Below, piece by piece: positions 32,999 to 41,323 of a DNA stretch of 64,000 nt (positions are counted from its first letter, which is position 1; each line of letters opens with the position of its first letter). The DNA is taken from NCBI RefSeq assembly GCF_036021035.1, contig NZ_CP107930.1, positions 1,178,001-1,242,000 on the forward strand. Direction: 5' to 3'. Below the pieces are notes generated by a model. The model saw nothing but the letters and a program-made list of their open reading frames with translations. It was not told the DNA's origin and made no database searches. Made by a program: the position numbers and the translations under genes. This DNA is from Kineococcus sp. NBC_00420. GTDB lineage: Bacteria; Actinomycetota; Actinomycetes; Actinomycetales; Kineococcaceae.

Positions 32999-34801
32999 TC
33001 AGGGGTGGGCGCCCGCGGGTCGGGGCCGGCTGAACAGGTACCCCTGGGCCAGGTCGCAGCCGAGCTCGAGAAGGACGTCGCGCTGCTCGGCGGTCTCGAC
33101 CCCTTCCGCCACGCAGTCCAGCCCCAGGGCGCGCGCGAGGTGCACGCAGGCTCCCGCGATCGCCCGGTCGGCGGGACGATCGACCAGGGACTCGACGAAG
33201 GAGCGGTCGATCTTCAGCTCGTGCACCGGGAAGCGCTGCAGGTAGGTCAGGCTCGCGTAGCCGGTGCCGAAGTCGTCGATCGCGATCCGGACGCCCAGGG
33301 CCGCCAGGGCGCTCAGCGTGGTCTCGGCCGCGACCGGGTCGGTCATCAGCGCCGTCTCGGTGATCTCCAGGACCAGTTGCGAGGCCGGCACACCGTGCCG
33401 AGCCAGCGCCGAGGTCACCAGGAGCATGAGGTCGGGGTCGCTCAGCTGCCGGGCCGAGATGTTGACGCTCATCTGGACGCCCGCGCCGCTCGAGGTCCCG
33501 GCCGTGGACTCGGCGGTGGGCTCGGCGTTCCACACCGCGGCCTGCGCGACCGCGGTGTCGAGCACCCAGGCACCGACCTCGCGGATCAACCCGGCGTTCT
33601 CGGCGACGTCGATGAACGCGGCCGGGCCGAGCAGCCCCCGGGTGGGGTGCTCCCAGCGGATCAACGCCTCCACCCCGGTGGTCACCCCGTCGACGAGGCG
33701 GACGCGGGGTTGGTAGTGCAGACGCAGCTGGCCCTCGGCCAGGGCGGCACGCAGCTCCTGGAGCAGCCGCAGGCGGTCCGCGGTCGCGTCCCCGGCCTGC
33801 GGGTCGTGCACGGCCCAGCCGCTGCGGCCGTTGTCCTTGACCCGGTACATCGCGGTGTCGGCCCGGCGGAGGACGTCGTCGGCGGCTCGCGCGGCGTCCC
33901 CGTCGGTCGGCAGGGGGTCGGCGAAGGCGATGCCCGCGCTCGCGGAGAGGACGACCTCCACCCCGTGGACGACGACCGGTGCCGCGAGCTCGGCCAGCAG
34001 GCGGCGGCACAGGGCGACCGCCTCGTCCTCGTCGCGCAGGTGTTCCAGGACGACGAACTCGTCCCCGGCGAAGCGCGCCACGACCGCGCTCTCGCGCACC
34101 GCGGCCCGCAGCCGCGCACCGAGCACCTTCAGCAGTTCGTCGCCGCCGGCGTGCCCGACGCTGTCGTTGACGGCCTTGAACCCGTCGAGGTCCAGGAACA
34201 GCACCGTCGCTCGACCCGGCTCGGCCTCCGCGCTGGCGAGAGCGTCGGTCAGGACCGCCTGCAAGCCGGTGCGGTTCAGCAGGCCGGTCACGGGGTCGTG
34301 GTGGACCAGGTGCTGCAGGTGGCGTTCGGCGACGGCCCGCCGGGCCTCGGACGTCTCCGCCGTCCGCTTGGAGGCCAGCAGCTCCTGCTCGTAGCGGCGG
34401 CGTTCCCGGGCGGCGAAGAGGGCGATCAGGACCGGCCCCGCGCCGGCGGCGGGGGCGCCTGCGTGGTCCAGGGAGGTGGCGCTGAGGAACGCCGCGTGCC
34501 GGACGCCCCCCGCGCCCATTACCTGCACGGCGCTCTCGTCGACGCGTCCGGTGGTGGTCAGCTTCGGCAGGCTGTGCGTGGTCCACACGATGCGGTCGCC
34601 GACCGGCAGCAGCCGGGCGAACACCGTCCCGACGACGTCCTCGCGCGACAGCCCCGACCACGCCGTGAAGGTGTCGTTCGCGGCCAGGACGAGACCGGTC
34701 TCGGGGTCCAGCACGAGGTGGGCGCACGGGGAGTGGCGCCACCACAGCGCTTCCGGCCCGGTGACCGGTTCGATCCAGGTCGCGAGCGCGCGGTCGGTCA
34801 C
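32999..34801 (-). CDS. PAS-GGDEF-EAL cyclic-di-GMP protein
   Basis: A 600-residue soluble protein: PAS-like sensor (about 20-130), a short coiled linker, GGDEF domain (about 165-335) and EAL domain (about 350-595). The GGDEF loop reads AGDEF (245-249), a variant found in some active cyclases; no RxxD inhibitory site precedes it. The EAL site looks complete: EALIRW (378-383), NIS, EITE, DDFGTG, KIDRS, EGVE and QGYLFSRP, so c-di-GMP hydrolysis is likely. GTG overlaps the stop of the RsbQ-like hydrolase gene, so the two are translated as a pair. By analogy with RsbQ/RsbP the hydrolase may make or load the PAS ligand. Confidence 0.9.
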   Translation of the reverse strand: MTDRALATWIEPVTGPEALWWRHSPCAHLVLDPETGLVLAANDTFTAWSGLSREDVVGTVFARLLPVGDRIVWTTHSLPKLTTTGRVDESAVQVMGAGGVRHAAFLSATSLDHAGAPAAGAGPVLIALFAARERRRYEQELLASKRTAETSEARRAVAERHLQHLVHHDPVTGLLNRTGLQAVLTDALASAEAEPGRATVLFLDLDGFKAVNDSVGHAGGDELLKVLGARLRAAVRESAVVARFAGDEFVVLEHLRDEDEAVALCRRLLAELAAPVVVHGVEVVLSASAGIAFADPLPTDGDAARAADDVLRRADTAMYRVKDNGRSGWAVHDPQAGDATADRLRLLQELRAALAEGQLRLHYQPRVRLVDGVTTGVEALIRWEHPTRGLLGPAAFIDVAENAGLIREVGAWVLDTAVAQAAVWNAEPTAESTAGTSSGAGVQMSVNISARQLSDPDLMLLVTSALARHGVPASQLVLEITETALMTDPVAAETTLSALAALGVRIAIDDFGTGYASLTYLQRFPVHELKIDRSFVESLVDRPADRAIAGACVHLARALGLDCVAEGVETAEQRDVLLELGCDLAQGYLFSRPRPAGAHP

Positions 34802-35760
34802 GACGGCGGCCCGGAACGGGTCGCACCGGACGCGTCGTGGCGAGCGTGGCGGTCCAGGTGCGCGCGGAGCGCGGCGGCGGTCTCGGCCGGCGCGCTGATG
34901 TGCGGGCAGTGCCCGGTGGCCTGCAGCGCCACGAGGTGACCGCGCGGCAACGCCGCGGCCACCGCGGCCCCGACCTCCTCCGGGGCCAGGGCGTCGTGGC
35001 GGCACTGCAGCACCAGCGTCGGCTGGTCCACCCGTCCCAGCACGTCCCGGGAGTCGCTGAGGAAGATCGCGCTCGCGAAGGTCGCGGCGGCGTCCGGATG
35101 GGTGCCCAGGAAGCTCTCGGTCAGCTCGGCCTCGAGGTCCGGGGACCCGGGGGTGCCCATGACCACCGGCGCCATCGCCGCGGACCAGGCGTAGTAGTTG
35201 CTGTCCAGGGACTCCAGCAGTTCGTGGACGTCCTCCAGGCTGAAACCGCCGACCCAGCCGCCCGCGGGGTCGTCGACGTAGCGGGGGGAGGGCGCGAGCA
35301 GGGCCAGGGAGGCGAACCGGTCCGGTTGGGCGGCCGCGGCCAGCAGCGCGATCATCGCGCTGACCGAGTGGGCGACCACGTGCACGTCGCGCAGGTCCAG
35401 CGCCGCGCAGACCTCCAGCAGGTCCTGGGCGTACCCGCCCAGCTCGGCGTGGCGCTCGTGGTCGAAGTCGGCCAGCCGGGTGCCCCCGGAGCCGGCGTAG
35501 TCGAACAGGACGACCCGGTGGTCCTGGAAGAAGGGCAGCAGCCGCGTCCAGGCCAGCTGCCCGGCACCGAACCCGTGGGCCAGCAGCAGCACCGGCCCGT
35601 GCGGGTCCCCGACCTCGGTGACGCAGTGCCGGGCCAGGACGGCGGCCGCGTCGGGCACCGTGACCACCGGCTTCGGTGGCGTGCTCGACACGACGCAACC
35701 GGCACGCCGGGGCGGGATCGTTCGCGCGGGGTGGTCGGGAGGGGTGGTCGGGTGGTGCAC
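34798..35760 (-). CDS. RsbQ-like alpha/beta hydrolase
   Basis: About 320 residues. The alpha/beta hydrolase core resembles Bacillus subtilis RsbQ along its length: LAHGFGAGQLAW, FDYAGSG, AHSVSAMI, LLAPSPRYVDD, GGFSLEDV and GHCPHISAP. The catalytic triad is complete: Ser132, Asp256 and His284. RsbQ works with the PAS domain of RsbP to activate the energy-stress response. Here the partner encoded next, with a GTGA overlap, is a PAS-GGDEF-EAL protein. GTG at 35760 has GAGG five bases upstream but gives a ~35-residue extra head; GTG at 35691 is possible. Confidence 0.85.
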   Translation of the reverse strand: MHHPTTPPDHPARTIPPRRAGCVVSSTPPKPVVTVPDAAAVLARHCVTEVGDPHGPVLLLAHGFGAGQLAWTRLLPFFQDHRVVLFDYAGSGGTRLADFDHERHAELGGYAQDLLEVCAALDLRDVHVVAHSVSAMIALLAAAAQPDRFASLALLAPSPRYVDDPAGGWVGGFSLEDVHELLESLDSNYYAWSAAMAPVVMGTPGSPDLEAELTESFLGTHPDAAATFASAIFLSDSRDVLGRVDQPTLVLQCRHDALAPEEVGAAVAAALPRGHLVALQATGHCPHISAPAETAAALRAHLDRHARHDASGATRSGPPS

Positions 35761-37637: not shown

Positions 37638-39947
37638 GTGATCGGTGACGCGAGCCAGCCTGCGGATCGGACGACCCGGCTCCTGCTGGTGGTCGTGGCG
37701 GCGGTCAGCCTGGCGGCGCTGATCGTGCCGCAGCTGCGCACACCCGTGATGCTCGTGGCCGTCTGGACCGCTCCCCTGCTGGTCCTGCGGGGTCGCCACC
37801 GGCACCACCGGGGCGCCTGGCCCTGGACGGTCGTCGCCGCGATGCTGACCGCCTGGGCGGGGGGTTTCACGGCCGGGGAGGTGCTCGGCCCGCACCACCC
37901 CCTGGTCCTGGTCTGCATGGGGACGGGTCAGCTCCTGGGCGTCGTCGTCGTCGCCCACATGGCGCAGCTGGCCGCCCGCCACCGGGGCCGCGCGGGCGCG
38001 AGCAGCCCGGGCGGTGCGCTCGACGTCGTCGTCGTGGTGGCCGTGCTGGTCACCGTCGCCGCCCAGCTCGCCACGCTCGGCACGATGACCCCGTACTTCG
38101 TCCTGGTCGCCGGTGTGGACATCGTCCTGCTGGGTGCCCTCGTGAAGTTCATCGTCTCGAGCACCGGCCTGGGCCCGGCCTCGCACCTGCTGCTCGCCGG
38201 GGGCCTGTTCTCCCTGACCTACGACCTCTCCACCGCCGTGCACGACAGCCGGCTGGCGGAGACCGGCAGCGCGCAGGGGCTGCTGGGGACCCTCGCGGTG
38301 CTGGCGCCGGCGTGCGCCGCGACGCACCCCAGCATGCGGGCGGTCTTCGATCCCGCCACCTTCACCCGCCGCCGGTCCGCCTCCACCGCTCTGCTGGGCC
38401 TGCTCCCGCTGGTCCTGGCCCCCGCCGCCCTCGCCTGGATCACCACCGCGCACCACGGCGGTGCGGGCGGCGCGACGCGGGGGCTGCCGCCCTGGGTCAT
38501 CCCGGTGACCGGCGCCCTCGTGGCGGGCCTCTGCCTGGTGCGCGCGGCCCGCGTGCTGCGGGCCACCGAGCACCTCGCCGAACGCGACCCCCTGACCGAC
38601 CTCGCGAACCGTCGTGGGCTGGCCAGGGCCCACCAGCAGCGGAGCACACCGGTCGGCCTGCTGCTGCTCGACGTCGACGAGTTCAAGCAGGTCAACGACA
38701 CCCACGGCCACGACGTCGGTGACCTGCTCCTCCTCGCCGTGCGCGACCGGTTGCTGGCCGCCACCGCGGGTGACGGCGTCCCCGCCCGTCTCGGTGGCGA
38801 CGAGTTCGTCGTCCTCACCGCACCCGCTCACCTGGACGCCGTCGCGGACCGGCTCCTGCACGCCCTGCGTGCCCCGCTGGTCGTGGGAGCCCTGCAGATC
38901 CGGATCGGGGTGAGCATCGGTCTCGCCACGACGGCGACCACCGGGGCGCTCCCCGCCACCGCCGACCTCGCCGAGCTGCTCACCCACGCCGACATCGCCA
39001 TGTACGCCGCCAAGACCGCCGGTGGTGGACGGGCCGCCACCTTCCACCCCGACATGCGGGCCGAGGTCAGCGCCCGCTACGCCCTGAGCAACGACGTCCG
39101 CCAGCTGCTGGCGCAGGACCCCGACGTCGGTCACCTCGAGGTCCACTTCCAACCGGTCGTCGACCTGCTCAGCGGCGACGCCGTCAGCGCGGAGGCGCTG
39201 ATCCGGTGGCGCCACCCGGTGCACGGTCTGCTCGCCCCCGACGCCTTCCTGGGGTTGGTCGGGAGCAACGACCTCGACACCCAGCTCGACACCGCGGTCC
39301 TGCGCGCCACCGTCCACCACCTGCGCCGGTGGCAGGACGAGGGCCGCCCCGTCCTGCCGGTCAGCGTGAACATGACCGGTGCGAGCCTGGACGACCCCGC
39401 TCTGGCGACCAGCGTCCTGGCGGTGCTGGCCGACGCCGGGGTGCCCACCAGCTCGGTGCGCCTCGAGATCACCGAGCAGGACGAGGTCGCCGGTGCCGGT
39501 CCCGCCGCCGCCTCGCTGCGCGCACTGCGCGACGCCGGGATCCTCGTCCTCCTCGACGACTACGGCACGGGCTACACCTCGCTGGACTACCTGCGCCGCT
39601 TCCCGATCCAGGTCCTCAAGCTCGACCGGTCGCTCGTCAGCGCCTCCCCCCGGCCGGACGCCGACGCGATCGGGGCAGCACCGCAGGGCGACGTGCTGGA
39701 GCGCTCCGAGATCGTGGCGGCCGTCACCGCCATGGCCGGTCACCTCGGGCTGCAGGTCATCGCCGAAGGCGTGGAGACCACCGCGGAGCGCGACGAGCTC
39801 CTCGCGCTCGGCATCCGCTACGCCCAGGGCTACCTCTTCTCCCGTCCCGTCCCCGCCGCGGACTTCGCCGCGCGGTACCTGAGCCACCGCGACGGGTCCA
39901 CCACCCGCTCCCCGGCGGCCGTCGAGGTGGCGTCGAGCGCCGGGTGA
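37638..39947 (+). CDS. Membrane GGDEF-EAL cyclic-di-GMP protein
   Basis: A 769-residue protein. The first ~310 residues contain about eight to ten hydrophobic segments, a MASE-like membrane sensor. GGDEF domain ~320-475 with an intact LGGDEF loop and no RxxD site; EAL domain ~495-750 with EALIRW, NMT, EITE, DDYGTG, KLDRS, EGVE and QGYLFSRP, all catalytic positions kept. Both synthesis and breakdown of c-di-GMP are therefore possible. The GTG start has no clear ribosome site. Next to the chemoreceptor and the PAS-GGDEF-EAL pair it forms a motility/second-messenger cluster. Confidence 0.9.
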   Translation: MIGDASQPADRTTRLLLVVVAAVSLAALIVPQLRTPVMLVAVWTAPLLVLRGRHRHHRGAWPWTVVAAMLTAWAGGFTAGEVLGPHHPLVLVCMGTGQLLGVVVVAHMAQLAARHRGRAGASSPGGALDVVVVVAVLVTVAAQLATLGTMTPYFVLVAGVDIVLLGALVKFIVSSTGLGPASHLLLAGGLFSLTYDLSTAVHDSRLAETGSAQGLLGTLAVLAPACAATHPSMRAVFDPATFTRRRSASTALLGLLPLVLAPAALAWITTAHHGGAGGATRGLPPWVIPVTGALVAGLCLVRAARVLRATEHLAERDPLTDLANRRGLARAHQQRSTPVGLLLLDVDEFKQVNDTHGHDVGDLLLLAVRDRLLAATAGDGVPARLGGDEFVVLTAPAHLDAVADRLLHALRAPLVVGALQIRIGVSIGLATTATTGALPATADLAELLTHADIAMYAAKTAGGGRAATFHPDMRAEVSARYALSNDVRQLLAQDPDVGHLEVHFQPVVDLLSGDAVSAEALIRWRHPVHGLLAPDAFLGLVGSNDLDTQLDTAVLRATVHHLRRWQDEGRPVLPVSVNMTGASLDDPALATSVLAVLADAGVPTSSVRLEITEQDEVAGAGPAAASLRALRDAGILVLLDDYGTGYTSLDYLRRFPIQVLKLDRSLVSASPRPDADAIGAAPQGDVLERSEIVAAVTAMAGHLGLQVIAEGVETTAERDELLALGIRYAQGYLFSRPVPAADFAARYLSHRDGSTTRSPAAVEVASSAG

Positions 39948-41045: not shown

Positions 41046-41064
41046 GGTTCCGGCGCCGTCGCCC

Positions 41065-41323
41065 CTCCGGCGCTCAGAAGCCCGGTCGCGCCTCCGGCGC
41101 TCAGAAGCCCGGTCGCGCCTCCGGCGCTCAGAAGCCCGGTCGCGCCTCCGGCGCTCAGAAGCCCGGTCGCGCCTCCGGCGCTCAGAAGCCCGGTCGCGCC
41201 TCCGGCGCTCAGAAGCCCGGTCGCGCCTCCGGCGCTCAGAAGCCCGGTCGCGCCTCCGGCGCTCAGAAGCCCGGTCGCGCCTCCGGCGCTGAGAAGCCCG
41301 GTCGCGCCTCCGGCGCTCAGAAG
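41065..41323. repeat. 27-bp tandem repeat, about 9.6 copies
   Basis: Units start at 41065, 41092, 41119, 41146, 41173, 41200, 41227, 41254, 41281 and 41308; the last is cut after 16 bases. Only single-base differences are seen (such as C to G at 41291). Each unit contains GCGCC-TCC-GGCGC, a small hairpin, and TCA, the complement of a TGA stop. The stop codon of the convergent hydrolase lies in the last unit. Because 27 is a multiple of three, some frames stay open through the array, but there is no start or ribosome site for a repeat protein. Confidence 0.95.

Follow-up and report, generated by a model that had tools for sequence, protein, structure and literature searches.

We analyzed a window of 64,000 nucleotides from Kineococcus sp. 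NBC_00420 (contig NZ_CP107930.1, positions 1,178,001 to 1,242,000), in which the gene for an RsbQ-type alpha/beta hydrolase overlaps the gene for a protein with PAS, GGDEF and EAL domains. The pair is a real member of the RsbQ-PAS sensing module described in 2011, and it is likely an actinobacterial form of this module with cyclic diguanylate (c-di-GMP) as its output, most likely through breakdown.

In the original description of the module, 45 RsbQ-PAS pairs were reported whose output is a phosphatase, a kinase or a cyclase (Nadezhdin, Brody and Price 2011, PMC3183031). Cyclase outputs were found in both lineages, and three of the cyclases carried a C-terminal EAL domain, the same module and output class as the window pair. 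In B. subtilis, RsbQ contacts the PAS domain of RsbP, with product delivery and occupancy sensing as the two models; as of 2011, the target of the module was known only in this species and its signal was not known (PMC3183031). An AlphaFold2 model placing RsbQ at the PAS-linker interface was later presented with reference to the module (PMC12143880). The sequence-only reading of the window had proposed that the hydrolase-to-PAS logic is here wired to c-di-GMP, which is well supported by homology, adjacency, the tree and the PAS profile. As a novel wiring, however, it was ruled out, since modules with GGDEF and GGDEF-EAL outputs were already published in 2011 (PMC3183031). No functional test of a c-di-GMP-linked member was found in the accessible text of PMC3183031, PMC12143880 and PMC3974145.

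Identity and distribution of the hydrolase-PAS pair

The hydrolase of 320 residues was assigned to Abhydrolase by Pfam. Among the best 60 of 141 phmmer matches in the PDB, B. subtilis RsbQ ranked first (1wom; E 8.8e-64, 219 bits), followed by Olei00960 (193 bits), plant receptors of the D14/KAI2 type (at most 174 bits) and other hydrolases (at most 57 bits). The AlphaFold2 model of the hydrolase, with a mean predicted local distance difference test score (pLDDT) of 94.2, matched 1wom with a template modelling (TM) score of 0.96 by target length and a root-mean-square deviation of 1.3-1.4 Å, and by E-value Foldseek placed Olei00960 first and RsbQ second, almost equal. Ser132, Asp256 and His284 aligned with S96, D219 and H247 of RsbQ, and the seven residues assigned to the triad and cavity of RsbQ (S96, D219, H247, F27, V97, F136 and F196; PMC3183031) are all identical in the window hydrolase. 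The nucleophile position is Ser in all 167 unique aligned hydrolases, window included. The hydrolase is the sole close RsbQ match in its own genome, where the runner-up scored 32 bits, and its nearest named relatives among the best 80 of 119 were from Quadrisphaera and Motilibacter. By these comparisons it is a true RsbQ homologue, and the intact Ser-Asp-His triad noticed in the sequence-only reading was recovered.

A quick tree of 91 rows included all GGDEF-linked RsbQs except one duplicate, 22 of the 69 phosphatase-linked and 16 of the 32 kinase-linked ones, 10 of 20 partnerless RsbQs from the Arthrobacter group, six from Bacilli, three from the PDB and two outgroup rows, after two further candidates for the outgroup had been dropped as too short. 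The hydrolase grouped with the RsbQs, as the sequence-only reading had named as a test of its proposal. It was placed among PAS-partnered RsbQs in the actinobacterial part of the tree, in a clade of 36 rows (Shimodaira-Hasegawa-like approximate likelihood ratio test, 99) that holds 25 actinobacterial PAS-GGDEF-linked RsbQs, locus L140 and the 10 partnerless Arthrobacter-group ones. Because the branches of the two outgroup rows and of D14 are very long, the root and the placement of D14 are unsure. The D14/KAI2 strigolactone/karrikin receptors share hydrolase family and fold with the window protein (for D14, 38% identity and a TM score of 0.95 by target length); they are plant receptors with other partners and are not known to involve a PAS.

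In the partner protein of 600 residues, Pfam found the GGDEF and EAL domains, and the N-terminal PAS fell below its threshold. Modelled with AlphaFold2 from a 60-row alignment, residues 1-157 show a clear PAS fold with five strands and a helix of 25 residues towards the GGDEF domain (mean pLDDT 91.3). All 50 Foldseek matches listed for this model were PAS/LOV-type sensor domains or proteins holding them; phmmer with the PAS region gave no match among PDB sequences at E up to 1. A profile of 44 rows, made from phosphatase- and kinase-linked partners only and with no GGDEF-linked ones, scored the window PAS at 115 bits in a search of the genome, with the next place at 35 and nothing else above 36 bits, and by this profile the domain is RsbP-type.

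We surveyed the best 80 of the 119 relatives in named genomes together with 13 loci from the genus and family and 74 from a search of the class, where a match at E 1e-50 was present in 72 of 394 genomes, including that of the window. After one duplicate (L144, the same as L010) was dropped, 166 unique loci outside the window remained, 164 of them with at least 600 bases downstream. The downstream genes were classified with home-made profiles, and ten representatives were checked with Pfam. Because every locus was found by its relation to the window protein, the shares carry a bias. A PAS gene was found downstream in 136 of the 164 loci, with a phosphatase output in 68, a kinase in 31, GGDEF plus EAL in 27, GGDEF in three and no assigned output in seven; the coupling is thus not unique to this genome. 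Without a PAS match, one kinase, one GGDEF and one phosphatase were recovered downstream, 22 loci had a downstream frame with no such domain, and three had no long downstream frame. RsbQ was present in all 11 genomes of the genus, window's included, and one genome (G009) has both a GGDEF-EAL-linked (L138) and a phosphatase-linked copy (L142). Since the only close RsbQ of the window genome adjoins its only strong RsbP-type PAS and the pair recurs widely, the pairing, as read from these genomes, is not due to chance.

The Arthrobacter group accounted for 20 of the 22 loci with a downstream frame lacking these domains. These Arthrobacter/Pseudarthrobacter-group paralogues (among L016-L041) keep the triad and have no PAS partner downstream, and in the tree they nest beside the GGDEF-EAL-linked RsbQs, with all 10 sampled forming one clade. 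Clustering of the neighbouring open frames at the 27 loci classed as lacking a PAS or a frame gave, with the recurring neighbours left unannotated, no recognisable conserved partner.

The proposed hydrolase-PAS interface

We compared the window pair to RsbQ-RsbP of B. subtilis, with which it shares the hydrolase fold and triad, the gene order and an N-terminal RsbP-type PAS followed by a helix. The output here is GGDEF-EAL, whereas RsbP is a PPM phosphatase that acts on the sigma-B pathway. RsbP numbering was fitted via L220, a Bacilli RsbQ that is 89% identical to 1wom and has RsbP downstream. In this numbering the window PAS has C10, L13, L48, R53, V55, W56, H59, P62, E72 and A86. Among nine distinguishing residues it thus retains C10, L13, L48, a basic residue at 53, H/Y59 and E72, and it differs from RsbP at positions 55, 56 and 86. 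In B. subtilis RsbP, the L48A, F55A, Y59A and E72A mutants were null and P86A was weak (PMC3183031); of these residues the window protein keeps L48 and E72, has His for Y59, and does not keep F55 and P86. The end of its PAS reads VLIALFAARERRRYE and has no DIT motif. A coiled-coil linker of at least 21 residues was reported for 36 of 45 modules, with EAL-bearing proteins among the exceptions (PMC3183031); in the model, the window PAS is followed by a helix of 25 residues.

RsbP position 56 corresponds to the heme-ligating position in DosP/FixL (PMC3183031). The oxygen-sensing DosP has the same PAS-GGDEF-EAL domain order as the window protein (NCBIfam and Foldseek matches), but since position 56 is Trp in the latter, heme ligation as in DosP is unlikely. 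Separately, His occupies this position in 45 of 69 phosphatase-linked RsbP-type PAS domains, in which heme binding is possible.

The loop adjoining the RsbQ cavity is a proposed contact site (PMC3183031). It is one residue longer in the window hydrolase than in RsbQ and has 20 residues in all 25 actinobacterial PAS-GGDEF-linked RsbQs; a length of 18 prevails among the phosphatase-linked (65 of 69) and kinase-linked (23 of 32) ones. At PAS position 55 all 25 clade rows carry L or V, and an aromatic residue is usual in the phosphatase-linked (67 of 69) and kinase-linked (29 of 32) rows. That these are matched changes was considered and not supported outside the clade, where they occur together in one of four RsbQs with a 20-residue loop and a readable position 55: L044 (kinase-linked) has V55, and the phosphatase-linked L150, L171 and L185 have an aromatic residue; in a fifth, L188, the position was unreadable. 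Conversely, position 55 is non-aromatic in eight rows whose loop has 18 or 19 residues, and the three to four independent pairs are too few for a test (no p below 0.05 with L188 excluded). All 20 Arthrobacter-group RsbQs without PAS also have the loop of 20 residues.

Covariation between RsbQ and PAS was calculated from 139 pairs. The RsbQ cap (residues 140-200, bounds chosen after a first covariation list had been viewed) held 85% of the 20 strongest pairs and 23% of the columns; shuffling gave cap shares of 11% (all rows) and 16% (within output class), and none of the 200 shuffles of either kind reached 85%. In that first list, for which bounds had been preset, cap plus loop (122-200) held 57% of the top 60 pairs as compared to 30% of the columns, and the PAS F helix (48-62) showed no excess (12% as compared to 12%). 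The cap share inside individual output groups was 30-40%. As a control, the phosphatase output domain was compared to RsbQ in 69 rows (z 12.3, cap share 15%), and PAS to RsbQ in the same rows (z 4.9, cap share 30%). Because the control exceeds PAS in total signal, ancestry alone gives strong covariation.

The hydrolase might instead have a metabolic role as an esterase, with the operon as its only link to the c-di-GMP enzyme and no signalling contact. RsbQ-like hydrolases can stand alone, since the 20 Arthrobacter-group paralogues, ten of which form one clade in the tree, have no PAS gene downstream, and V55 and A86 in the window PAS also fit such a role. We regard it as quite improbable in view of a PAS partner conserved over many phyla with three kinds of output, an RsbP-type PAS that is single in the window genome, and the B. 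subtilis genetics (PMC3183031).

Probable direction of the c-di-GMP output

The GGDEF motif of the window protein reads AGDEF and the product-inhibition site (I-site) reads R..A, and the combination of GG(D/E)EF and RxxD expected of an active diguanylate cyclase is, judged by these motifs, absent. The actinobacterial clade has 25 PAS-GGDEF rows, counting that of the window, of which 8 have AGDEF, 11 SGDEF and 6 SADEF, so that the first motif position is A or S throughout, and the I-site Asp is missing in all 25. The EAL domain was checked at ten positions, taken as its metal and catalytic residues. All ten are present in the window protein, and the set is complete in 23 of the 24 EAL-bearing clade rows, with Ala at one aligned position in L009; L015 is the sole row with no EAL in its frame. 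A further seven rows are GGDEF-linked (from four Pseudomonadota and one Acidobacteriota, plus L140 and L215); all seven keep GG(D/E)EF, and six keep RxxD. One of these, L140 (5507-8153), from the same genus and RsbQ clade as the window pair, has a GAF-GGDEF partner with canonical GGEEF and RxxD. Psychromonas ingrahamii A1SX34, an example of the published modules with cyclase/EAL outputs, differs from the window protein in having an extra PAS; the degenerate GGDEF and I-site set the window clade apart from these published modules.

These patterns suggest that the window cyclase is possibly weak or inactive, and we expect the output to be a c-di-GMP phosphodiesterase under RsbQ control. The hydrolase would bind or turn over a small molecule and, through direct contact with the PAS domain, alter its partner, which is probably a dimer. 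The change would travel along the post-PAS helix to the GGDEF-EAL part, where the EAL half would cleave c-di-GMP. From the degenerate GGDEF and the lack of a product-inhibition site we infer that the GGDEF half makes little or no c-di-GMP; it may serve as a regulatory, perhaps GTP-binding, platform. In this picture the homology, the adjacency, the folds of the domains and the motif pattern across the clade are observed, and the contact, the signal and the direction of the output are deduced.

Several points weigh against this reading. With regard to contact, the window PAS has V at position 55, where F55 of RsbP is essential for RsbQ contact, and A at 86, where P86A weakens RsbP; the covariation is suggestive only, as it is not separable from shared ancestry with confidence. 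With regard to output, active cyclases are known that read AGDEF (VCA0965) or SGDEF (ECA3270), and degeneracy affects more than 40% of EAL-GGDEF proteins in any case (PMC3974145), for which reasons a phosphodiesterase output is not established. The 25 degenerate rows belong to a single clade and may thus go back to a single loss of the motif, and the partner of L140, the 26th GGDEF-linked RsbQ of this clade, is canonical and lacks an EAL and a recognisable PAS. In favour of the reading, 15 of 18 other EAL-bearing GGDEF proteins examined in the window genome have GGDEF, two have AGDEF and one gave no motif. This background, composed of 17 proteins from the 30 best-scoring of 92 GGDEF matches plus one at 37638, favours intact motifs because it was drawn from the best-scoring matches, although the window GGDEF ranks 31st, just below those sampled.

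Under a bifunctional or cyclase output, the AGDEF domain would still make c-di-GMP and the hydrolase would switch synthesis on or off, for which "turnover" in the sequence-only reading leaves room. Active AGDEF/SGDEF cyclases (PMC3974145), the second glycine and DEF kept in the window protein and 18 others of the 25 clade rows, and the canonical cyclase of L140 are consistent with this view, but the I-site Asp is lost in 25/25, SADEF occurs in 6/25 and EAL is kept in 24, and we consider it rather unlikely. With regard to the sequence-only reading, all three domains of the partner were found, although the GGDEF is degenerate; the "turnover" of c-di-GMP proposed there probably amounts to breakdown here.

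A clade-wide degenerate GGDEF with loss of the I-site Asp and a retained EAL was not found in the accessible part of PMC3183031, the main text of which contains no mention of Arthrobacter, Kineococcus, AGDEF, SGDEF, degenerate or I-site. From the clade with degenerate cyclases follows a prediction of output direction that is testable with two proteins. Cleavage of c-di-GMP in vitro, as a directly readable enzyme output, would provide a simple assay for the ligand of the module, and the same readout could tell whether hydrolase catalysis or only binding matters. As a speculative and on balance doubtful scenario, the module may have become a dedicated input to c-di-GMP breakdown in one actinobacterial clade, with the cyclase disarmed and the interface re-cut (20-residue loop, aromatic residue 55 to L/V), so that a cousin of the strigolactone/karrikin receptors would set c-di-GMP according to a small lactone- or ester-like molecule.

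Layout and neighbourhood of the locus

The sequence check gave the same coordinates, strand and GTGA overlap as the sequence-only reading (Table 1). The hydrolase gene ends in GTGA, of which GTG is the start of the partner gene, and of the 25 actinobacterial PAS-GGDEF-linked pairs, 24 allow an overlap of -4 or -1. The GTG at 35760 is favoured as hydrolase start because the two nearest relatives begin similarly (VHHPTT, as compared to MHPTT in L131 and VHPST in L132).

Table 1. Positions of the two genes and their features in the window.
Feature	Position	Strand	Basis
RsbQ-type alpha/beta hydrolase, 320 residues	34798..35760	-	phmmer to 1wom, 219 bits; AlphaFold2 model and Foldseek
Nucleophile Ser132 (AHSVSAM)	35365..35367	-	aligned with S96 of RsbQ
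20-residue loop adjoining hydrolase cavity (SPRYVDDPAGGWVGGFSLED)	35230..35289	-	alignment; role in RsbQ from the legend of Fig. S2 in PMC3183031
Triad Asp256	34993..34995	-	aligned with D219 of RsbQ
Triad His284 (GHCPH)	34909..34911	-	aligned with H247 of RsbQ
GTGA overlap (stop of hydrolase gene, start of partner gene)	34798..34801	-	sequence
PAS-GGDEF-EAL protein, 600 residues	32999..34801	-	Pfam, translation
RsbP-type PAS, residues about 16-131	34409..34756	-	AlphaFold2, Foldseek, profile
Helix linking PAS to GGDEF, residues 132-157	34331..34408	-	helix 132-156 in AlphaFold2 model, which stops at 157
Degenerate GGDEF domain, residues 167-327	33821..34303	-	Pfam, E 1.7e-37
AGDEF motif, residues 245-249	34055..34069	-	sequence
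Predicted EAL phosphodiesterase domain, residues 348-593	33023..33760	-	Pfam, E 3.7e-74

The pair, a diverging chemoreceptor gene and a second GGDEF-EAL gene lie within 7 kb, and the sequence-only reading had pointed to these neighbours. That they form one functional locus, a larger motility circuit, would fit this proximity, but the window arrangement was found in none of 17 loci (13 from the genus and family and four other relatives), and partial chemoreceptor matches beside the pair were recovered only in L131 and L140. A second GGDEF nearby is unremarkable because the genome has 92 GGDEF matches in 5.4 Mb. The larger locus was therefore rejected for the lack of synteny in these loci, and we give a motility circuit very little credence; the conserved unit consists of the two genes for the hydrolase and the PAS-GGDEF-EAL protein. 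The genome also has 29 SpoIIE phosphatase matches at 28 places and, with its GGDEF matches, a rich signalling set. Elsewhere in the window, positions 41058-41323 contain a 27-base tandem repeat (9.9 copies, 98% match), the frame of which reads as repeats of LLSAGGATG.

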